From NCBI GenBank assembly GCA_030595785.1, contig JAUVCG010000005.1, forward strand, positions 1-34,733: a stretch of DNA of 34,733 nt. The letters run 5' to 3'. A program made the translations under genes and the position numbers. Under the pieces are notes generated by a model, which saw only the letters and a list, made by a program, of their open reading frames with translations, did not search any database and had not been told where the DNA came from. Positions 22,019 through 34,733 of the stretch are shown here, one piece after another; within the stretch, counting starts at the first letter, position 1, and each line of letters begins with the position of its first letter. The stretch comes from Kiritimatiellales bacterium (GTDB taxonomy: Bacteria > Verrucomicrobiota > Kiritimatiellia > Kiritimatiellales > Pontiellaceae).

Positions 22019-22227
22019 AATTGGAGCATGCGAAAGATGTTGAGACTACTGAGTTTGTTGGTAATGGGCCTGATGGCTTCCAATGTTGTGTCCGGAGCCC
22101 GGGAGGAGGCGCTGGACAACGGTTTGCGGGAGTTTGATGCCTCGGAACCGGCGCATCGAAAAATCACCAAGGACTTCAAGGCGTATCAATATTATGGTTC
22201 GCCCAACCTGATGATTAGCACTGACGG

Positions 22228-22242
22228 TTCCAGCCATTGGAA
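22228..22242. repeat. TTCCA-N5-TGGAA palindrome (TTCCAGCCATTGGAA)
   Basis: Exact 5-bp arms. Confidence 0.8.
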
Positions 22243-22647
22243 CGACCACGACGGATGGGGCTATATGACCAAGGGCCGCATGACCTATCGCGCGGGCCAC
22301 GACACCGAATGCTGTGCCGGAAACATCCACCGCATGTTCACCGATTTCCTGAAACGCGCCTGGTTGCAGAAGGGTCGCCAGATTACGGCGGCGCTCTATG
22401 CCCCCGGAACGGTTGACCTGCAGTTGAAAAACGGTGCCAAACTCGCGATCAAGCAGACCACCGACTATCCCTTTGTTCACTCCATCCGTTTCGACTTTTC
22501 GATGAATCAATCCGAAGCCCTCGAATTCCGCATGCGCATTCCGGCCTGGAGCCAGCGGTACACCGTGAACCTGAATGGCAAAGAGGTGTTGGCAAATGTT
22601 CGGAGGAATATCCTTCCATCCAGCTCCATCCAGCTCCAGCCTGCGCA

Positions 22648-22669
22648 GGGCAGACAGGAATGTCTGCCC
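22648..22669. repeat. Inverted repeat GGGCAGACA-ggaa-TGTCTGCCC
   Basis: Perfect 9-bp arms, 4-nt loop, between convergent genes; could act as a bidirectional terminator or REP-like repeat. Confidence 0.85.
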
Positions 22670-22673
22670 CACT

Positions 22674-24503
22674 TTAGGACGCGTTGAACTTCTGGAGCAG
22701 ATGCTCCTGCATCCGCTCTTCATCGTTGGTGTACTTCATCGCCTTTACGGTCGGAATGAGGGGCGAGGCATCGTCGCCCATCCAGTCTAGGATATTCAGC
22801 ACCGCCAGCGTGGCATAGGATTTTTCCTTCAGCAGAGATTCGAGACAATCAAGTCCTTCTTTTTTATGGCCGTTGCGGACGAGCAGCCATGCGGCCATGG
22901 CACGTACCTCGTGCGAGGAATCTTCCAGGCCTTGGAACCCCGCTTCGGTGTGGTTGAGAAGGAAACAGCCGACGATGCCCCAGTAGCGTAAGCCGCAGTC
23001 GGGGCTCTTGAGTAAATTTACAAAGGGTGGAAGATTTTCGGGGTTTTTCTCCAGTGCCAGATCGGCGGCATCGAGCAGGGCGGGCAGGTTGTATAGCGTT
23101 GGATCGCGCACCATGTCGTGGATCGTCAGGTTGTGGTCGGCGGCGCGTTTAACCATTTCGGATTCGGGCAGCAGGCCGGTATCGTGAATTTGTTCCTGCC
23201 AAGCGCGCAGGGTGGTGCGCATCCGGCTGGTGATTTCGGCATATTCTGGATTCTCTACCAGGTTGTTGACATTGTCCGGATCCTGCTGCATGTCGTAGAG
23301 CTCTTCCGTCCAACCCTTGGGCGCAAAGAAGCGCGCCTGCACCTCAGAGGTCTTGCCGGCCTTGACGTGCGCGTCCCACGCCTGCGCGGCTTTCATTTTC
23401 CAGAGATATTGCAGGTGTTGCATCCACGGGGCATAAGGCATGTAGTTGCGGATGTAGAGGAAGCGCTTGTCGCAAACTGCACGGGCGTTATCGAGCCGCT
23501 CATCCATTCGTCCGCGGAATGCAAAATGAAATTCCTGCTCCGGTTCGGTTGCGGCACCGAGAAAGGTGTGGCCCTGCATGTGGCCGGGAACCTTCGATCC
23601 GGTAATGCTGAGCCATGTTTGCGGCATGTCAACAAAGCTGACGAGCCGATCAATTTTACTGCCGGTTTTTTCCGCCGGCCAGAGGTGTTTGTATTTTTCC
23701 GGGATTCGGATGATGAGCGGGCAGTGCAGGCCGTTTTGGAAGAGATAGCGTTTGCTGCGCGGCAGCACACCGCCGTGGTCCGAGCAATAGATCACGATGG
23801 TGTTGTCGGCCAGTCCCTGTTCTTCCAATGTTTGGAGCCATTGGCCCATTTCGGCATCCATTCGCGTCATGGCATCGTGGTACTTTGCATAGTTTTTGCG
23901 GATATCCGGCAGGTCGGGGTGGTAGGCGCGCAGTTGGGTGTTTTTCGGGTCGTGCAGTGTGTTTTCCACGTCGCCCTGTGCGCGGCTTTCGTGCGAGGTA
24001 TAACTGTTGTAGATCTGGAAGAACGGCTGTTTTTGCTTCAGCGCCTCCCAGTCGACCTTGCCTTGGTTGTCCCAGCAGTCGGAATCATCACGCCCACCAA
24101 TGTTGTAGTCGGTCTTGTTGTCGTTGCCGGTGTAGTAGCCATTTTCCTGCAGATAGTCGGGATAATATTTGATCCGGTCGTGCGGAACCGCATTGCGGCT
24201 GCGCATCGGGTGAGTGCCGTTCGAAATGGCCAGCATGCCCGTGATCCATGTGCTGCGTGAAGGGGCGCAGACCGGTGCGTTGGCATAGCAGTGCATATAC
24301 TGAAATCCTTCGGCGGCCAGTCGATCAATGTTGGGCGTTTGGGCCCGTGGATTTCCATAGCAGCCCACCCAGTCGACGCTGTTGTCCTCGGAGGTCAGCC
24401 ATAGAATGTTCGGGCGTGCTTCGGGCTGGGCCGACACCATGTAGGTGGCGCCTGAAAGAAGGGTTGCGGCGGTGGCGATTTTGATAAAACTGCGTCTCAG
24501 CAT
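22674..24503 (-). CDS. S1 family sulfatase (N-sulfoglucosamine sulfohydrolase-like) with C-terminal HEAT-like region
   Basis: MLRRSFIKIATAATLLSGATYMVSA signal; NILWLTSEDNSVDWVGCYGNPRAQTPNIDRLAAEG, CAPSR, YCSDHGG. Confidence 0.93.
   Translation of the reverse strand: MLRRSFIKIATAATLLSGATYMVSAQPEARPNILWLTSEDNSVDWVGCYGNPRAQTPNIDRLAAEGFQYMHCYANAPVCAPSRSTWITGMLAISNGTHPMRSRNAVPHDRIKYYPDYLQENGYYTGNDNKTDYNIGGRDDSDCWDNQGKVDWEALKQKQPFFQIYNSYTSHESRAQGDVENTLHDPKNTQLRAYHPDLPDIRKNYAKYHDAMTRMDAEMGQWLQTLEEQGLADNTIVIYCSDHGGVLPRSKRYLFQNGLHCPLIIRIPEKYKHLWPAEKTGSKIDRLVSFVDMPQTWLSITGSKVPGHMQGHTFLGAATEPEQEFHFAFRGRMDERLDNARAVCDKRFLYIRNYMPYAPWMQHLQYLWKMKAAQAWDAHVKAGKTSEVQARFFAPKGWTEELYDMQQDPDNVNNLVENPEYAEITSRMRTTLRAWQEQIHDTGLLPESEMVKRAADHNLTIHDMVRDPTLYNLPALLDAADLALEKNPENLPPFVNLLKSPDCGLRYWGIVGCFLLNHTEAGFQGLEDSSHEVRAMAAWLLVRNGHKKEGLDCLESLLKEKSYATLAVLNILDWMGDDASPLIPTVKAMKYTNDEERMQEHLLQKFNAS
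22923..22937. repeat. TTCCA-N5-TGGAA palindrome (TTCCAGGCCTTGGAA)
   Basis: Exact 5-bp arms; read FQGLED on minus strand. Confidence 0.8.
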
Positions 24504-24648: not shown

Positions 24649-25948
24649 TTATTGGCGGCCGGTTACGACGGCGGCGCCGGTGTTGGTGTTGGCGAGCGCG
24701 GCGCGCAGGCGGGCCGAGGTGGAGGATCCAACGAGCTGCCGCAGTGTCACAGACTCAAGCTTCTTTTTCTTCAGCGCCTGGAGCTGCTTTTCCAGGTGCA
24801 GGAGGTTTTCTACCTCGATAATTGCGCCGGGAGCGAGGTCGGCGGCGGGCGTGACCGGAATTAGCCCTTCATAGGTGAGGACGGGCCAGACCAGTGCGTC
24901 GTACGCATCGCCGGGGGCGCGGTAGAATTTCGGGGTTTGGATGGTGTGGACGTTTTTGCGGATGTTGTTGAACTGCTCCAGCACCTTGCGTCCGTCTTGG
25001 AGTCCGGTGACAGGAGTGTCATCGTGGGAGCCGTTGCCGAGCTCGTGGCCGGCGGCAACCAGTTTGCGCAGGGCTTCTTTTTGCGCTTTGGCAGTGGCCT
25101 CGTTCACGAAGAAAGTGCCTTTGGTTCCGCCGGTTTTCAGCAGGTCAGCCGCGGCCTCCAGGTCGGCAGCCTTCCAGTCTGCTGGAAAGATGATGGCCAC
25201 CTGTTTTTCAGTGGTTGGAACGTTGCTGAGCGCTTCGCGCTGGATGTCGTAGAGCTCGCTGTCGGCCTGCGAGGCTTCGGCGGGATCCCACATCGCGCCG
25301 ATTTTTTTCAGCATGGCCACGGTTTCTTCGTGCAGCAGTCTGCGGTTATTGGTCAGCAGTTCGGTGAAGTGGGTCTTGATCATTGCGAGTGCGTCAACGG
25401 TCCCGTCGGCATAGTTTTCTGCAGGGAGCGTCATGTAGTCCGCCCAAACGTCACCCCAGAGCGGGAAGCAATAGTAGAGGCCGACTTTCAGGTCGCGGGC
25501 GCGGAAGGCAGCGACGAATTCGCGCACGATATCGCCTTTGCCGTCCTTGTAGTTTTTGAACATGGAGATGTCGTGATCGGTGGTGGCGCTGTCCCACAGA
25601 CAATATCCGCCGGTGTGCTTGGTCGTGAGAATTCCATGGCTTTGCCGAAAAAAACGTCGGGCGCCCAGCCATCGTGCTGTTCCCATTCGCCGTTGTGGAT
25701 ATACATGTCGTCGACGCGATCATTGGTGAACCAGTCGGCGGTGGTGCCCGTTCCTCCGTCGCCCTGGCCAAGCCATTCCTCGAAGCCGCGATCCATCGCA
25801 GGTGTCTGTAGCACCGGGTTGCCGTGGCACGACAGATCGCCGTAACCCTGATCATCGGTGTGATGACCACGATCACGTTGGGCTGTGATGCCGCCGAGGC
25901 AACGGCAGTGCTCAGCAGTAGCGCTCCGGTCAGGATTGATTTGACCAT
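24649..25948 (-). pseudogene. Composite remnant: sulfatase N-terminus / sulfatase middle / GH29 pieces / NodB-like deacetylase
   Basis: MVKSILTGALLLSTAVASAASQPNVIVVIT then (2-bp shift) DDQGYGDLSCHGNPVLQTPAMD|RGFEEWLGQGDGGTGTTADWFTNDRVDDMYIHNGEWEQ, then GH29 LTTKHTGGYCLWDSATTDHDIS...HFTELLTN|NRRLLHEETVAMLKKIGAMWDP, then GTKGTFFVNEATAKAQ...LVAAGHELGNGSHDD. Confidence 0.8.
25172..25187. repeat. Palindrome variant TTCCAG-TCTG-CTGGAA
   Basis: 6-bp arms, 16 bp. Confidence 0.65.
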
Positions 25949-27694: not shown

Positions 27695-28570
27695 CTATTT
27701 TTTCTGTTCGGGGATTTTATCCATCATCAGCCACGGGCCGCTGGCGCCGGGCAGGGGATCCTGACAGGGATCGGTAAGTTTCCACCAGCGCTGGTTGCAG
27801 GGGTCGGCCTTGTTCATTTCGCCGTCTTTCTCGGCGTCGGTTCCGACATAGTCCACGTGGAAAAACTCATAGAGCTCGTCACCAATCTCGACGAAGAAGA
27901 CGGAGAAGTTGCGGTAGTTACCGCGCACCATTTGGTCGACGACACCGGGCCAGACGGTTTGGTGGAGCGAGCGGTATTCAGCCTCTTTTTCCGGCTTGAT
28001 GCGGGTGACCATGGCGAAGCGGTCGGCGGGTTCGCCCTTTTTCTGCGAGGCGCGGATATAATTGATCCACTCCATCTGAAGCCACTTGGTTCCGTAACGC
28101 GCGGCACGCGGGTGCGGCTCGATCAGTCTTTCCAATGCCTGGATGCCCTCGGCGCTTTCAAAGTCGGCGGCGGCTTGTAAATATTCGATTCCTTCATAGT
28201 CGAAGTAGATCATGATCCAGGTCTTTCCGGCAAACGTCTGCTTGTAGGTGGCGAGGTTGGTGATCTTTTTCTTTTTCAGCGCTTTGACCGCTTTTTTAGA
28301 GGAGAGCGTCTGCAGCGTTTCAGCCAGTGCGTCCTCCGCGCCGGCTTTGGCGGCGGCGATCAGGCCGACGCGGGTCGGTCCGCCGCTCATCAGACGGTTT
28401 TCGTAGGGCGAAAAGCCGAATGCGGACAGGCTAGAGAGGGCGAGCAGGATGATGAATAAACCACGAAATACACTAAGCACACGAAATCCGTGCGCTGAAT
28501 TTCTTTCGTGTGGTTCGTGTTTTTCGTGGGTCCCTCTTCCGATGCAAAGTTGTAGGCGTGTCAGCTTCAT
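27695..28570 (-). CDS. Secreted protein with two L-rhamnose-mutarotase-like (RhaM) domains
   Basis: VGLIAAAKAGAEDALAETLQTL...ITNLATYKQTFAGKTWIMIYFDYEG and FAMVTRIKPEKEAEYRSLHQTVWPGVVDQMVRGNYRNFSVFFVEIGDELYEFFHVDY. ATG 28570 preferred over the track start at 28642. Confidence 0.75.
   Translation of the reverse strand: MKLTRLQLCIGRGTHEKHEPHERNSAHGFRVLSVFRGLFIILLALSSLSAFGFSPYENRLMSGGPTRVGLIAAAKAGAEDALAETLQTLSSKKAVKALKKKKITNLATYKQTFAGKTWIMIYFDYEGIEYLQAAADFESAEGIQALERLIEPHPRAARYGTKWLQMEWINYIRASQKKGEPADRFAMVTRIKPEKEAEYRSLHQTVWPGVVDQMVRGNYRNFSVFFVEIGDELYEFFHVDYVGTDAEKDGEMNKADPCNQRWWKLTDPCQDPLPGASGPWLMMDKIPEQKK
28461..28530. repeat. Large imperfect inverted repeat of ccacgaaa/cacacgaaa units
   Basis: Left ccacgaaatacactaagcacacgaaat; right arm reverse complement ccacgaaaaacacgaaccacacgaaagaaat. 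In frame reads THEKHEPHERNSAHGFRVLSVFRG. Confidence 0.85.
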
Positions 28571-28584
28571 GGTTGGTCTCCTTG

Positions 28585-30294
28585 TTATGGATTGCAGTGC
28601 GCTTCGATCTTGGCGGCGTTTTCCGGGTTGGCGGTTTTCCAAGCATCCATTTTTTCTTCGGACGGGGCGCGGAAGAGGAAGTAGATGGTGGAGGCGGCCA
28701 GCAGCACAATGATGGAGAGGACTTTATAGTTCATCAGACCCTTGGCTCCGGGAATCCGCAACGGCGTTAACGGGGAGTCCCAGGCCATGGATCGGTTCTC
28801 TTCCGTATTGGTGTCTTCGCCCATTTTTGAAACGATAATCATGATCAGGATGCAGATTCCGCAGAGAATGCCGGAGGCGTGCATTGAGCCCAGCGGCCAG
28901 CCCGTGTGCTTCTTGGCCAACTCAAGGCCGAAAACAATCATGCCCATGGTAAACCCGGACCACAGAGTGATGACGGCGGCCTTGGCGGTGGCCCGCTTCC
29001 AGAAGATGCCGACCATGAAGACGGCGGTGATCGGCGGGGCGACGTAGCAGATCATGGCGACGATCGCCTGGAAAATGGTGTCGAATTGACCGATGATCGG
29101 CGACCAGAGGATGGCCAGCACTACACTGGTAACCGTGGCGATACGACCGATGCGTACCAGCTTCTTGTTGGAGGTTTCGGGTCTGAAGCGTTTGTAGAGG
29201 TCGAAGGAGAACAGCGTGGCGATGGAGTTGAGGGCGCCGGCAATGGTGCCCATCAGTGCCGCCATCAAGGCCGCCACGATTAAGCCGCGCAGGCCGGATG
29301 GTAGTAGGTTTACAACCATGTGGGCGAAGGCCTCCTTGGAGTCGGCCAGTTCCGGGAGCAATCCCTTGTTGATCAGGGCCAGGCAAAGCAGGCCGGGCAA
29401 GACAAAGAGGAACATGGGCAACAGCTTGAGGAAGGCCGCAAACAGGGCGCCCGCCTTGCCATGTTCCTCGTTCTTGGCTCCGAGAACGCGTTGCACAATG
29501 GTCTGGTCGGTACACCAGTACCAAATGCCGATGACGGGATAGCCCACGAGCACGGCGTGCCAGGGCAGTCCGCTAAAATCATTTCCGTCGCGGATCACCG
29601 AGAGCATGTTGGGGCCGACCGTGGCTTGCAGGGTTTGCCAGTCGCCCAGCTTGTTGAAGGCGAAGATGGTGATGATGGTCGATCCAATCAGCAGCGTGGT
29701 GGTCTGGATGGCATCGGTCAGGGTGACGGCCAGAAGCCCGCCAACCACCACGTAGAGGCCGGTGGCCAGGGCGATCACAATCATGGTCGGGAATAGGGCG
29801 CTCAGCGCCGTGCTCCAGCCCATGAGGGCATTGATTACGGCTCCGCCTGCATAAAGGGAGACCCCAATATGGATGAAGATGGCGGAAATGATGGAGATGA
29901 AGGCCAGAAAGTCGCGGCTCTTTCGGCAGAATCGCTTCTCCAGGAAGTCCGGCAGGGTGGTGACGTGCGAGCGCAGGTAGAAGGGGACGAAGAAGACGGC
30001 CAACATGACCAGCGTGAAAATGGCGGCCAGCTCGAAGTTGGCATAGGCCATGCCCGTTTTGTAGCCCTGTTCGGCCAGCCCGACAATGTGAACGGTCGAA
30101 ATGTTGGTGGAAAAAAGCGATAGCCCGATGATCGGCCACTTCAGGGTGCGCGCCGCCAGAAAGTAGGCGCCCTCGTCTTGTTCTCCGCCTGATCGAGCGG
30201 CCTTGCGTTTTTGGAAATATGCCGAGCCGCAGCCGACCGTGATGATCATCAGCATGTAGCCGATCAAAATTGAAAAATCGAGTATGTTAAGCAT
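28585..30294 (-). CDS. Sodium:solute symporter (SSS family)
   Basis: WPIIGLSLFSTNISTVHIVGLAEQGYKTGMAYANFE, LPDFLEKRF, multiple TM segments, WYWCTDQTIVQRVLGAKNEEHGKAGALFAAFLK. Confidence 0.95.
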   Translation of the reverse strand: MLNILDFSILIGYMLMIITVGCGSAYFQKRKAARSGGEQDEGAYFLAARTLKWPIIGLSLFSTNISTVHIVGLAEQGYKTGMAYANFELAAIFTLVMLAVFFVPFYLRSHVTTLPDFLEKRFCRKSRDFLAFISIISAIFIHIGVSLYAGGAVINALMGWSTALSALFPTMIVIALATGLYVVVGGLLAVTLTDAIQTTTLLIGSTIITIFAFNKLGDWQTLQATVGPNMLSVIRDGNDFSGLPWHAVLVGYPVIGIWYWCTDQTIVQRVLGAKNEEHGKAGALFAAFLKLLPMFLFVLPGLLCLALINKGLLPELADSKEAFAHMVVNLLPSGLRGLIVAALMAALMGTIAGALNSIATLFSFDLYKRFRPETSNKKLVRIGRIATVTSVVLAILWSPIIGQFDTIFQAIVAMICYVAPPITAVFMVGIFWKRATAKAAVITLWSGFTMGMIVFGLELAKKHTGWPLGSMHASGILCGICILIMIIVSKMGEDTNTEENRSMAWDSPLTPLRIPGAKGLMNYKVLSIIVLLAASTIYFLFRAPSEEKMDAWKTANPENAAKIEAHCNP

Positions 30295-30433: not shown

Positions 30434-31249
30434 TTATGGGGCCATTCTTTTTTTTAGCACATCCAGCATATGAAGGTTAAGCTCCCATTGATCGGATACC
30501 GGCTCCTGTGTATGCGGAATCACCGGTGTGTAGGGCGGCGGTCCGAATTCGGTGGTAATGGTGAATGCCGACGATCCCTTCTCGTCATGCGCCGCAATGA
30601 TTTGATCCCACCATCCGAGATAGAGATCGACTGCTTCCCGCCATTCCGGCGCGCGCGGGTCGTTGACCTGCGGCCCCTGGTCATGCCCGATCCGGGCATG
30701 GATGTGATCAGCTCGTTCAATCGCCGCGTCAACCGATGCTTTTTGATCCTGTAGGAACGATTCCGAGACACAGCACCAGTGGGAAAAGTCGGCCGTAAGC
30801 CGAAGGCCGGGGCGTTGTTCCAGATAGCGACGTGTCAGGGCTGCGGAAAACGGAAAGCGCCCGCGATGCGTTTCATGCACCACCGGGACATTGAAGGCTT
30901 CGCCGATTTCTGCCGCGATATCAATCAACTCCAGGTTTTGCTCGAAGGTGAACCAGTCGCGCCCGGTATGGGAATTGATGAGCCGGGGTTTGAACGCTGC
31001 GATGCGCTCCAGACTGGCGCGGTAGTGCGCCCGGTGCGTTTCGAAGTCGGCCATTCGCGTGCCGGAATGCTGAGCAACATAATCCAATCCGTTCGCCGCC
31101 AGCAGCTCAATCTGCTTCTTTGCATCGTCCGGATCTTCCGCCAGATTAAGTTCCATGCCATTGAAGCCGGCCGCGGTAAGCCGCGCACAGTAGTGCTCGA
31201 ATTCTTCATGTTCATAGCCCCATTGGGGAGAGTAAAATTTGATCTCCAT
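30434..31249 (-). CDS. Sugar phosphate isomerase/epimerase (xylose-isomerase-like TIM barrel)
   Basis: Start MEIKFYSPQWGYEHEEFEHYCARLTAAGFNGMELNLAED at 31249; VPVVHETHRGRFPFS, LTADFSHWCC, HIHARIGHDQGPQVNDP. Confidence 0.87.
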   Translation of the reverse strand: MEIKFYSPQWGYEHEEFEHYCARLTAAGFNGMELNLAEDPDDAKKQIELLAANGLDYVAQHSGTRMADFETHRAHYRASLERIAAFKPRLINSHTGRDWFTFEQNLELIDIAAEIGEAFNVPVVHETHRGRFPFSAALTRRYLEQRPGLRLTADFSHWCCVSESFLQDQKASVDAAIERADHIHARIGHDQGPQVNDPRAPEWREAVDLYLGWWDQIIAAHDEKGSSAFTITTEFGPPPYTPVIPHTQEPVSDQWELNLHMLDVLKKRMAP

Positions 31250-31259
31250 AAAATCCTTT

Positions 31260-32648
31260 TCAATCGGGAAGACCCAGTTGAACCTCTCCGTTTTCAATCC
31301 GAACCGGGAATATCCGCATCTTATTGCAGGCCGGGGAGAGTGTAGCCTCTCCGGTGCGGATGTCGAAGCGTCCGTTGTGCGCCGGGCATTCGATCTGTCC
31401 GTCGATGACAAAACCGCGAGAAAGTTTGGCGCCGGCGTGCGAGCATTTGTTCGACATGGCGTGGTAGCCGTCGCTGAGGCGGTAGACGGCGTACTGCTCT
31501 CCATTATGCTGGAACTCCAGTACATCATCCGTCGGCATATCTTTTGCATCCGGTACGTCGATCCAGACCGATGGGCTGGATGCTTCTACAACCACGGTTT
31601 CACTCGCTTCTGTTTCAGGAACCGTTTCGGGTTTTCCAAGGTCTGGAAGATGGGTGCTCTGCGGCGTGGCGGGATATTCGGCCGGGAGCTGCGGCGTGAC
31701 GTGATAGTCATAGTCTTTCTGCTGCCGCAGAATCGTCGGGATAATTTCGCGGTAGGCGTGCCATACGCTTGGGTACATCGGCGGAAGCTGGTGCTTTATT
31801 TTTTTGTTCAGCTTGCGCAGCGCGTGGAATGGCACGGTCGGGAACATGTGGTGTTCGGTGTGGTACTGCATATTCCAATAGAGGAAACTGGTGATCGGAT
31901 CGACCCAAACATTGCGGCAGATCAGGCGGTGATCGTAGACGTTCTGCTCAAGACCGACATGCTGCGTGTCGTTGAGCAGGGTCGGGATGAAGGCTCCGTA
32001 GAAGCGGGCAAACAGGGTGTATACCAGCGGAAGAATGGTTCCGAAAACAAAGCAGGAGGCAATGATGAGGGCGTAGCCCAGCAGCCAAAGACGGGAGCTC
32101 CAGATCATGGCCTTCCAGTCGCTCTCAGGAACCAGTTCCTTGTCGGCAGGGGGAATGATACCGAAGGCATGGTTGATGATCGGGCCGGGTTTGAAAATGC
32201 CGATTCCGAAAAACTGGCCGACCAGGGTCGGGATGTCGGCCGGACGCGGGGTAATCACCTCGGGGTCATCGCCGATCAGGTAGGTGTAGGTATGGTGCTG
32301 GGCATGTCCCCAGCGATCATAGATCGGTTCCGCTCCATGGGCGAACCCGGAAATCCAGTGCACCAACTCATTCAGCCAGACGGATTTGAACACGGTCCGG
32401 TGATGGGTTTCGTGCATGAGATGGTTCAGGAAGCAATAGACGGTTCCATAGGCAAAAAATGCTGGAATCATCCACGGCGTGCCTATCGCGCGATAGGCGA
32501 GAATTCCGAGGCCGATGAGTACGGCGAAGAAGGCAACGGTGTGAGCCAGTCCTTTCAGGTCGCTTCGCTGCATAAGTGCCTTTATTTCCTCTCGGGAAAT
32601 ATCGCACCTATACCAACGATCGAGGGTGTCGATGTCGTCTGCTTTCAT
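31260..32648 (-). CDS. Membrane fatty-acid-desaturase-like di-iron oxygenase fused to a C-terminal Rieske [2Fe-2S] domain
   Basis: Histidine boxes HETHH, HAQHH, HTEHH with TM segments; C-terminal CSHAGAKLSRGFVIDGQIECPAHNGRFD (C-x-H / C-x2-H). Confidence 0.92.
   Translation of the reverse strand: MKADDIDTLDRWYRCDISREEIKALMQRSDLKGLAHTVAFFAVLIGLGILAYRAIGTPWMIPAFFAYGTVYCFLNHLMHETHHRTVFKSVWLNELVHWISGFAHGAEPIYDRWGHAQHHTYTYLIGDDPEVITPRPADIPTLVGQFFGIGIFKPGPIINHAFGIIPPADKELVPESDWKAMIWSSRLWLLGYALIIASCFVFGTILPLVYTLFARFYGAFIPTLLNDTQHVGLEQNVYDHRLICRNVWVDPITSFLYWNMQYHTEHHMFPTVPFHALRKLNKKIKHQLPPMYPSVWHAYREIIPTILRQQKDYDYHVTPQLPAEYPATPQSTHLPDLGKPETVPETEASETVVVEASSPSVWIDVPDAKDMPTDDVLEFQHNGEQYAVYRLSDGYHAMSNKCSHAGAKLSRGFVIDGQIECPAHNGRFDIRTGEATLSPACNKMRIFPVRIENGEVQLGLPD
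31634..31648. repeat. TTCCA-N5-TGGAA palindrome (TTCCAAGGTCTGGAA)
   Basis: Exact arms; in the linker between desaturase and Rieske domains. Confidence 0.8.
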
Positions 32649-32734
32649 GGTTGGTTCGCCTTGTGATTTCCCCCGAAAACACCCCGACTAAATCCTATTT
32701 ACTTCAGTACTATCGAGCTAAATATGGCACCGCT

Positions 32735-33063
32735 CTATTGGTCGGCATCGAGCGGAACAACGATGTTCCAGGCGTTCCCTCCGTCATCAAAACCGCCGCG
32801 TCCATCCAGAACCGCAAAACTCAGGTGGGTGAGCCGGCCGTCCTGCATTAAACCCTGTACGCGTTCGATCTGGCCCATTTGACGTTCGGAGCCATCGTCC
32901 CATTTGACCGCTTTGGTATAGGCCACCGGCTTTTCGTCCAGCTTCCAGTCGAGTCCATCTTTGGAATGGGCAAGGATGCCTCTTCCATGGCAATTGCGGC
33001 CCAGTTCCAAAGTCTTCGGGGGTCATGGCGCACGGTGGAGATGTCTTTCATGATAAATTCCAT
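32735..33063 (-). pseudogene. Glycosidase remnant (GH43/GH117-like C-terminus) with frameshift
   Basis: HSKDGLDWKLDEKPVAYTKAVKWDDGSERQMGQIERVQGLMQDGRLTHLSFAVLDGRGGFDDGGNAWNIVVPLDADQ preceded, in another frame, by MEFIMKDISTVRHDPRRLWNWAAIAMEEAS. Confidence 0.7.
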
Positions 33064-33184
33064 GTGGGCTCCTGTCCGCCGCCGCCGATGTCCAGCGTGC
33101 AGGCAACTTATACCTGCGTTAGGATGCGTCATATGTGTTCTGTCCTTGCTTCAATTCGAGTTAACTCTTTCAACCGCGTGCGGG

Positions 33185-34651
33185 CTAATCTGCCGGTTGC
33201 GGATCTGCCGACCAAGCTCCGATGTCAATCTCTCCGACTTGGGCAAAATCGCCATTGGCTCCGAGAACCTCCAATTTAACATAGCGCGCCACGCAGTTGT
33301 CAAACAGGGCAGTGTGGACGCGTGCATCGGCTTCCCATTCACCTTCGGAAACTATTTTAAAGGAGACGTTATCCTGACTGATTGAAACACGGTATTGAGT
33401 GACATTCCCTTCTTTAATGGAGCGTTCCGGTTTCATCCGGTGGGCTGGAACGCAGGTAAGCGCCTCCAGTCCTGACCAGCTTTTGCCGAGGTCGATCGTG
33501 ATGTGCTGGGGGAACTCCCTGTCGGTAGTCCATTCGGTATATTTCACGCCATTCATTCGACCATCAATTGCAAGGCTGGCATCGCCGCTGGACGCTTCGG
33601 CGTTGACGGGCATGACCGAATAGCTGATGTGCTTTGGTTGCGGGGGGAGCGGCGGACGTTCCATGTCGGGTTCCCACAGCTTACCTATATCCGCTAAAAG
33701 GTTCAGTTGGTTTTCTTCCAGCAAGCCATTGCGGTTCGGCAGGCACGCCAGCATATAGGTGCAGTAGCGCTCTTCGAGTTCTTTCAACATTTTAACAGCT
33801 TTTTGTGGATCGAGTCCTTTCTGAGCGGGGGTGTGTTCTCCCCAAAACCAACCGTTTCCTCCAACGAGTTTGTCGCAAATTGCAGAGCACAATTGATTAT
33901 CCGCCGGAGGATAAGCCCCCATGGGATATTCGAACATTACGTAGTCGTTGCGATAATACCCTTGGATATGTGTATTGTCACTCACCAAGCAGGCGGGTTG
34001 AAGCTCCCGGATCAACTCCCTGATTTCCCGAAAAGAGACCTGGTTATGCCCCGTATTCCAGTACCACCCGTCAAAAAACAGAAAATCGATCTTCCCGTAG
34101 TTGGTCAACAGTTCGGTAAGCTGGGTTTTGATAAACTCTATACGGTCTGGGGCAAGGGCTTTTCTCCCAATATGGTGGGTGCTGTCACAGATCGAATAAT
34201 AGAGCCCGACTCCAAGCCCTTTCTTACGGAATGCATCCACAAATTTTTTGACCACATCCTGTTTATACGGAGCACCGGCCACGTCGTATTCGGTGGTGGC
34301 ACTGTCCCACAGGCAAAATCCTTCATGGTGCTTGGTGGTCAGCAGACCGTAGGTCATGCCGGCTGATATCGCCGCATCGGCCCACTGATCACAATCAAGC
34401 GGTTGCGGATTGATTTCCTCAATCGAATGATTGGCTTCACCCCATCTAGCTCCATACGACATGATGTTATAGCAAATAAACATGCCGAACCGATGCTCAC
34501 TAAACTCGCGCTGTAGGTTCTCAAGCGGATCGATTATATTCTGTTGCGAGACCAACCGCGGAACGTCGGCCATACCGCAGCCGACCACCAGGAAGACAAG
34601 CAATAGCGACCGGACGATAAGGGTTTGAAACAAGGTTGTGTGTACATTCAT
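33185..34651 (-). CDS. GH29 alpha-L-fucosidase-like lipoprotein with C-terminal F5/8-type (discoidin-like) domain
   Basis: Lipobox-like VVGC; HRFGMFICYNIMSYGARWGE, GLLTTKHHEGFCLWDSATTEYDV, KIDFLFFDGWYW; C-terminal AIDGRMNGVKYTEW...YVKLEVLG. Confidence 0.9.
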   Translation of the reverse strand: MNVHTTLFQTLIVRSLLLVFLVVGCGMADVPRLVSQQNIIDPLENLQREFSEHRFGMFICYNIMSYGARWGEANHSIEEINPQPLDCDQWADAAISAGMTYGLLTTKHHEGFCLWDSATTEYDVAGAPYKQDVVKKFVDAFRKKGLGVGLYYSICDSTHHIGRKALAPDRIEFIKTQLTELLTNYGKIDFLFFDGWYWNTGHNQVSFREIRELIRELQPACLVSDNTHIQGYYRNDYVMFEYPMGAYPPADNQLCSAICDKLVGGNGWFWGEHTPAQKGLDPQKAVKMLKELEERYCTYMLACLPNRNGLLEENQLNLLADIGKLWEPDMERPPLPPQPKHISYSVMPVNAEASSGDASLAIDGRMNGVKYTEWTTDREFPQHITIDLGKSWSGLEALTCVPAHRMKPERSIKEGNVTQYRVSISQDNVSFKIVSEGEWEADARVHTALFDNCVARYVKLEVLGANGDFAQVGEIDIGAWSADPQPAD

Positions 34652-34733
34652 TATAGGTATTCCTTTTTATTTTAACGGGTTACTTCTTCCATTGCGATCG
34701 CGGCCCAGTCCCATAAGCGCTGTGGGTGATGGC

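Follow-up and report, generated by a model that had tools for sequence, protein, structure and literature searches.

The locus and its genes

The window, which is the whole analysed stretch of 34,733 nucleotides, carries on the minus strand (31260..32648, ATG start) a gene for a single-chain MocD-MocE-like candidate oxygenase of 462 aa. The FA_desaturase (MocD-like) domain covers residues 59-298 (31755..32474, minus strand; Pfam E 1.4e-26) and the C-terminal Rieske (MocE-like) [2Fe-2S] domain residues 362-458 (31275..31565, minus strand; Pfam match at 362-448, E 5.4e-18). The initial annotation had described three HxxHH boxes and a Rieske domain in one protein, and both were recovered: the boxes lie at residues 79-83, 115-119 and 263-267, and the motif CSHAG...CPAH, with the ligands C402, H404, C421 and H424, at residues 402-424. 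Membrane-type helices were also present. The Rieske domain is the C-terminal end of the protein, and no Pfam domain of the mononuclear-iron catalytic type follows it. The AlphaFold model, built on 5 sequences, had a mean pLDDT of 49, too low for interpretation.

Homologues in one chain were found in Pontiellaceae bacterium B12227 (89%) and another Kiritimatiellales MAG (86%), and outside Kiritimatiellales in a Spirochaetales MAG (55%) and a partial Spirochaetaceae contig (58%). These assemblies are independent, which excludes an artefact of assembly as the source of the fusion. The dN/dS determined against the relative locus L032 was 0.087, indicating purifying selection, and the overlapping plus-strand ORF of 475 aa (31239-32666) was therefore ruled out as the coding frame. 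The fusion is the sole FA_desaturase match in the source genome (1.78 Mb, 59% complete).

A xylose-isomerase-like TIM-barrel protein (271 aa; 30434..31249, minus strand) starts 10 bp past the stop codon of the fusion; a 371-aa ORF reaching 31549 was rejected as a spurious upstream extension, the true start being 31249. The model of this protein (pLDDT 71) resembles IolE, UlaE, YcjR and Art22 in its fold, the closest being an IolE-like structure. It is followed on the same strand by an SSS (sodium:solute) symporter assigned by Pfam (28585..30294), a RhaM (L-rhamnose mutarotase) domain protein with a signal-like segment at its N-terminus (27695..28570), and a URO-D superfamily protein (PF01208; 25951..27192) with the motif H302-x-C304...H389, a candidate methyltransferase I. 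The adjacent isomerase and the nearby symporter and URO-D protein of the initial annotation were thus all in place, the URO-D gene being non-adjacent, at a distance of 4 kb from the fusion. No reductase gene was found beside the fusion.

Upstream of the fusion, the nearest complete gene encodes an alpha-L-fucosidase-family protein (Pfam Alpha_L_fucos) with an F5/8 C domain (33185..34651, minus strand). This gene is flanked by two 3' ends of a 431-aa family termed c8: a remnant of the last 32 codons (32974..33069, or 32974-33084 as the duplicated 3' end, minus strand) and, upstream of the fucosidase at the contig edge, a second copy of the 3' end (34678..34731, minus strand). L032 has an intact c8 gene immediately upstream of its fusion. 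An insertion of the fucosidase gene, accompanied by partial duplication of c8, may account for this arrangement. The c8-family proteins (431 aa, without a Pfam match) adjoin RACo and URO-D genes in L172 (12197-13456), L173 (4729-6015) and L174 (6614-7885), and an uncharacterised methyltransferase family is possible. Membership of c8 in URO-D was dropped as the hhalign and PDB profile matches were too weak, its tie to URO-D being solely the position in these three loci.

Two other ORFs of the window were observed. At 24649-25686 (minus strand), a polysaccharide deacetylase-domain ORF has an N-terminus that matches residues 19-79 of alpha-L-fucosidase, and is perhaps a gene fusion or a remnant. 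The short ORF at 22028-22687 (plus strand), overlapped by an opposite-strand ORF, contains only the middle domain of GH127 and is possibly a degraded gene.

Relationship of the fusion to MocD, MocE and other oxygenases

The desaturase half of the fusion shares 39-46% identity with rhizobial MocD (34% with one divergent copy) and 26-31% with two other plasmid-borne desaturases, and the Rieske half shares 41-43% with MocE. The best NCBIfam match of the Rieske half was the MocE family TIGR02377, with a score of 92.3 bits that is under the family cut-off of 136.15. MocD is described as the oxygenase for rhizopine that turns 3-O-MSI into SI (PMC2593844), and PMC10107442 assigns mocDEF to rhizopine catabolism. 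In the MocD references with a moc-like layout, Rhizobium indicum (L059) and Phyllobacterium zundukense (L060), MocD is accompanied by MocA-, MocB-, MocR-, MocE- and MocF-like genes; by type, the neighbours are a PLP-dependent regulator, Gfo/Idh/MocA, SBP, MocE and an FAD-reductase. The fusion resembles the MocD/MocE/MocF system in combining a desaturase-type di-iron enzyme with a Rieske ferredoxin in a sugar-like catabolic context. It differs in being one chain from a marine Kiritimatiellota host, and a separate MocF and the moc genes A, B, C and R, present in L059 and L060, were not found in the window cluster.

The rhizobial MocDEF operons (plasmids L056-L060) have a PanB-like hydroxymethyltransferase alongside, and in two cases PurU, which would fit the release of a C1 unit after demethylation. 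The TIM barrel next to rhizobial MocD and the isomerase of the window showed no significant similarity and were not accepted as orthologues.

In the tree, three MocD-like groups came together: the window clade of fusions and 322-aa stand-alone forms, a second fusion clade, and the rhizobial MocD group, which also holds 760-aa MocD-Rieske-NqrF-like triple fusions present in other families. The triple fusion of L048 has 763 aa and includes a reductase part of its own. The support for the branch uniting the three groups was moderate (81/89) and that for the window clade firm (100/99). Acyl-lipid desaturases from this genus sat apart on long branches of their own. The phylogenetic check proposed by the initial annotation thus grouped the fusion with the MocD-type proteins, apart from the acyl-lipid desaturases that these genomes also encode, and judged by sequence the fusion is of the MocD type and not an acyl-lipid desaturase. 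A more distant clade contains single chains of a desaturase, rubredoxin and a rubredoxin reductase-like part with 772-819 aa (L101 6850-9309, L102 6735-9053, L105 8075-10474; domains read by eye).

With acyl-lipid desaturases (PF00487) the fusion shares the superfamily and the histidine-box pattern, but it is deeply separated in the tree and its neighbours differ. Rieske non-haem iron oxygenases of the VanA and NdmA type are alike in the Rieske [2Fe-2S] cluster and in possible O-demethylation, whereas the catalytic part of the fusion has a membrane di-iron desaturase fold instead of a mononuclear-iron domain. The P450 O-demethylase acts on 6-O-methyl-D-galactose in porphyran degradation (PMC10033563). 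Its net reaction, the oxidative removal of an O-methyl group from an algal sugar giving formaldehyde, is the one proposed here; however, the fusion is a non-haem protein of membrane di-iron/Rieske architecture and unrelated sequence, in agreement with the earlier suggestion of a route distinct from P450.

Neighbourhoods in related genomes and the corrinoid core

For 25 MocD-like loci, the closest three genes on either side (131 proteins) were surveyed with Pfam, with 121 proteins from elsewhere in these genomes as the comparison. The survey counts were 19 for AraC-type HTH, 15 for URO-D, 6 for SSF, and 5 each for RhaM, PocR and AP_endonuc_2, and all six were absent from the 25 commonest background families. 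Sulfatases amounted to 4/131 near MocD-like genes versus 11/121 in the background; being commoner in random regions of these sulfatase-rich genomes, they were dropped as evidence. The ORFs of the relatives were called with a simple script that missed some neighbours, for example the URO-D at G016:C77.

The link to sugar genes, whose absence elsewhere the initial annotation had named as grounds for refutation, recurred in other genomes. The recurrent neighbours in Pontiellaceae were the isomerase, SSF, RhaM and AraC/PocR regulators, and in other families of the phylum aldose 1-epimerase, Gfo/Idh/MocA and AP_endonuc_2. The TIM-barrel isomerase adjoins MocD-like genes in L032, L033, L037, L041, L043 and L048, and the window-type SSS occurs together with RhaM and URO-D again in L032, L096/L132, L099 and L136. 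In the MocD-bearing genomes without RACo, the neighbours included Aldose_epim (7/79), AraC (7), Gfo/Idh/MocA (5) and AP_endonuc_2 (5). The recurrence of mutarotases in both the RACo-positive and the RACo-negative groups points to a free reducing sugar. The candidate role as an O-demethylase in a sugar cluster is therefore supported by the MocD-type placement together with the recurrent sugar neighbours.

The gene order in L042 is URO-D, MocD, MocE, GH120, GH120 and GH67. GH67 enzymes release 4-O-methyl-glucuronate from glucuronoxylan; as this was the one adjacent case, GH67 was not accepted as a general MocD partner. The Spirochaetales homologue (L034) has the fusion with no sugar genes around it. 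In L037 (12335-15686) and L043 (4171-7403), genes for a glycyl-radical enzyme (PFL-like) and a radical SAM activase were observed near the MocD-like gene and the TIM-barrel isomerase.

The initial annotation had mentioned that the URO-D family includes corrinoid methyltransferases, and this hint proved far stronger than first thought. A URO-D gene was located within 500 bp of 13/31 MocD-like genes of the genus, where 0.23 were expected under uniform placement, and within 2 kb of 16/31. In the genus, the copy number of MocD correlated with that of URO-D (Spearman 0.94, against 0.43 for MocD and genome size). The two genes are adjacent also in five other families (L048/G139, L110/G056, G080:C6, G092:C6, G300:C163) and in the Spirochaetaceae contig L035.

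The corrinoid core encoded by these genomes consists of FTHFS, a 208-aa corrinoid protein, RACo, DUF1638, URO-D+thioredoxin and CobW. The source genome has it too (G000:C35 / L137 3124-10755, 66-88% identity to L134), including both the corrinoid protein and the RACo-type activator. In L136 (G018), one strand carries FocA, FTHFS, the corrinoid protein, RACo and DUF1638, followed by SSS, RhaM, a window-type URO-D (77%), URO-D+Trx and CobW. About 13 kb of L096/L132 (G021) hold URO-D+Trx, a MocD-like gene, a window-type URO-D (85%), RhaM, SSS, DUF1638, RACo and the corrinoid protein, and in G300 the MocD triple fusion adjoins URO-D genes, the corrinoid protein and RACo. The fusion of URO-D to a thioredoxin-like domain (L134 6545-7906, L137 4046-5428) is conserved throughout the genus and in related families.

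Among the 46 MocD-bearing genomes, at least 3 URO-D copies were present in 24/24 with RACo and in 1/22 without it; the copy numbers were 3-42 in all 24 of the former and 0-2 in 21/22 of the latter. The one outlier, G017, has a genome completeness of 76% and encodes corrinoid proteins that stand alone. The split also runs within the families f19 and f54, which indicates that these counts, uncorrected for phylogeny, do not reflect only shared ancestry. That the URO-D paralogues track RACo across the phylum points to methyl transfer. In a comparison with the PDB, the profile of 13 MocD-neighbouring URO-D proteins matched methylcobalamin:CoM methyltransferase with E 5e-13, and uroporphyrinogen decarboxylase more weakly, with E 1.4e-5. 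Residues H302, C304 and H389 are nearly invariant among the MocD-neighbouring proteins. The UroD superfamily includes O-demethylase methyltransferases (PMC10418091, PMC13222342). The paralogues look like corrinoid methyltransferases, and for the URO-D protein of the window the most likely role is that of methyltransferase I in a corrinoid O-demethylase.

Acetogens and methanogens have corrinoid O-demethylases of the URO-D superfamily (MtvB, OdmB, VdmB, MtoB). As with these and the MtaA-type methyltransferases, a putative URO-D-superfamily methyltransferase, a corrinoid protein and RACo are found in the genome. The present system differs in its link to genes for sugar import and a mutarotase in place of aromatic ethers, and in the pairing with a candidate O2-dependent oxygenase.

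Proposed function and its alternatives

We consider it probable that the fusion removes an O-methyl group from a methylated sugar with the help of O2 and forms a pair with a corrinoid demethylase for anoxic conditions. This assignment draws on the architecture, the homology, the purifying selection, the conserved association and the presence of the corrinoid core, from which we infer the catalysis, the substrate, the electron donor and the division of labour with respect to O2. The substrate would probably be a methylated 6-deoxyhexose because of the RhaM and fucosidase neighbours. It would be imported by the SSS, and under oxic or micro-oxic conditions the Rieske domain would pass electrons from a putative NAD(P)H reductase to the membrane di-iron centre, which would hydroxylate the O-methyl carbon. 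The hemiacetal would then collapse to the free sugar and formaldehyde. The RhaM-domain protein would interconvert the sugar anomers, and the TIM-barrel isomerase would pass the sugar onward. Under anoxic conditions, the URO-D protein would move the methyl group of the same or a similar ether to the shared corrinoid protein of the genome, kept active by RACo, and the C1 unit may exit as formate via FTHFS and a formate channel.

The host lineage is marine and largely anaerobic. The cultured Pontiella are described as obligate anaerobes or oxygen-intolerant (PMC7356697, PMC10880615), and an O2-dependent step would thus need micro-oxic conditions. Despite their oxygen intolerance, Pontiella encode cydAB and ccoNOP (PMC7356697), and five 2-O-methyl-fucosidase (GH139) genes were reported in P. 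sulfatireligans (PMC7356697). Cytochrome bd is encoded in the source genome, and a COX1-family gene was found in 38/38 MocD-bearing genomes of at least 90% completeness. Present almost everywhere, COX1 was rejected as a marker splitting the genomes with and without RACo; its near-universal occurrence fits the use of O2.

Another substrate is conceivable for the demethylation, or for a hydroxylation, namely an O-methyl cyclitol of the inositol or inosamine type as in the case of rhizopine MocD, instead of an algal monosaccharide. The closest characterised relative acts on 3-O-methyl-scyllo-inosamine, the adjacent TIM barrel is modelled nearest to an IolE-like structure, and SSS symporters can transport cyclitols. 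However, the RhaM and Aldose_epim mutarotases recurring near MocD-like genes are sensible only for reducing sugars, the neighbours include GH67, GH120 and fucosidase, and no inositol catabolic genes were noticed in the window, making a cyclitol unlikely. It is likewise improbable that the enzyme of the sugar cluster performs another reaction, such as C-H hydroxylation or desaturation of a deoxysugar or uronate, with a non-methyl link to URO-D: the PF00487 superfamily does have hydroxylases for other substrates (the arginine hydroxylase GntB and carotenoid enzymes, with weak scores against the fusion), but the strongest homologue is a methyl-ether oxygenase, and the tracking of RACo by the URO-D paralogues speaks for methyl transfer.

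The URO-D protein could also capture or process the formaldehyde from the MocD-type enzyme, in a PanB-like slot, instead of being a methyltransferase. PanB-like genes follow the rhizobial MocDEF and one triple fusion (L049), and the H-x-C...H motif could bind a metal and a thiol; against this, the copy number follows RACo, window-type URO-D genes lie inside corrinoid cores, and the best match among solved structures is the methylcobalamin:CoM methyltransferase, so that we give this role little credence. The tree placement, the separate genes for lipid-type desaturases in sister genomes and the recurrence of the sugar and URO-D neighbours make it highly improbable that the fusion is a membrane-lipid desaturase or hydroxylase located near sugar genes by chance, in spite of the Pfam name FA_desaturase and the membrane-type helices.

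The probable pairing of an oxygenase with a corrinoid demethylase leads to a broader and more tentative proposal, namely that Kiritimatiellota and other Verrucomicrobiota-type lineages may hold two side-by-side routes for the methylated sugars of polysaccharides, with each cluster having its own MocD-Rieske and URO-D pair and sharing a core of corrinoid protein, RACo and FTHFS. In many polysaccharides of algae and plants, methylated sugars serve as caps. The searched literature contained no sugar O-demethylation route other than the P450 one for 6-O-methyl-galactose, and neither of the two routes was reported for these bacteria in that literature, which covered few subscription journals. MocD-like genes were present in 39/388 sampled genomes of the phylum. 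An oxidative route that needs no P450 and is widespread among marine bacteria of the Verrucomicrobiota type would supply a missing step in the breakdown of polysaccharides. The URO-D pairing and the tracking of RACo make anaerobic sugar demethylation directly testable, as genes and partners are named together with hosts that can be cultured (Pontiella). If the two-route proposal is true, the searched papers would contain no earlier anaerobic system for sugar O-demethylation, and this one would come with an oxic counterpart.
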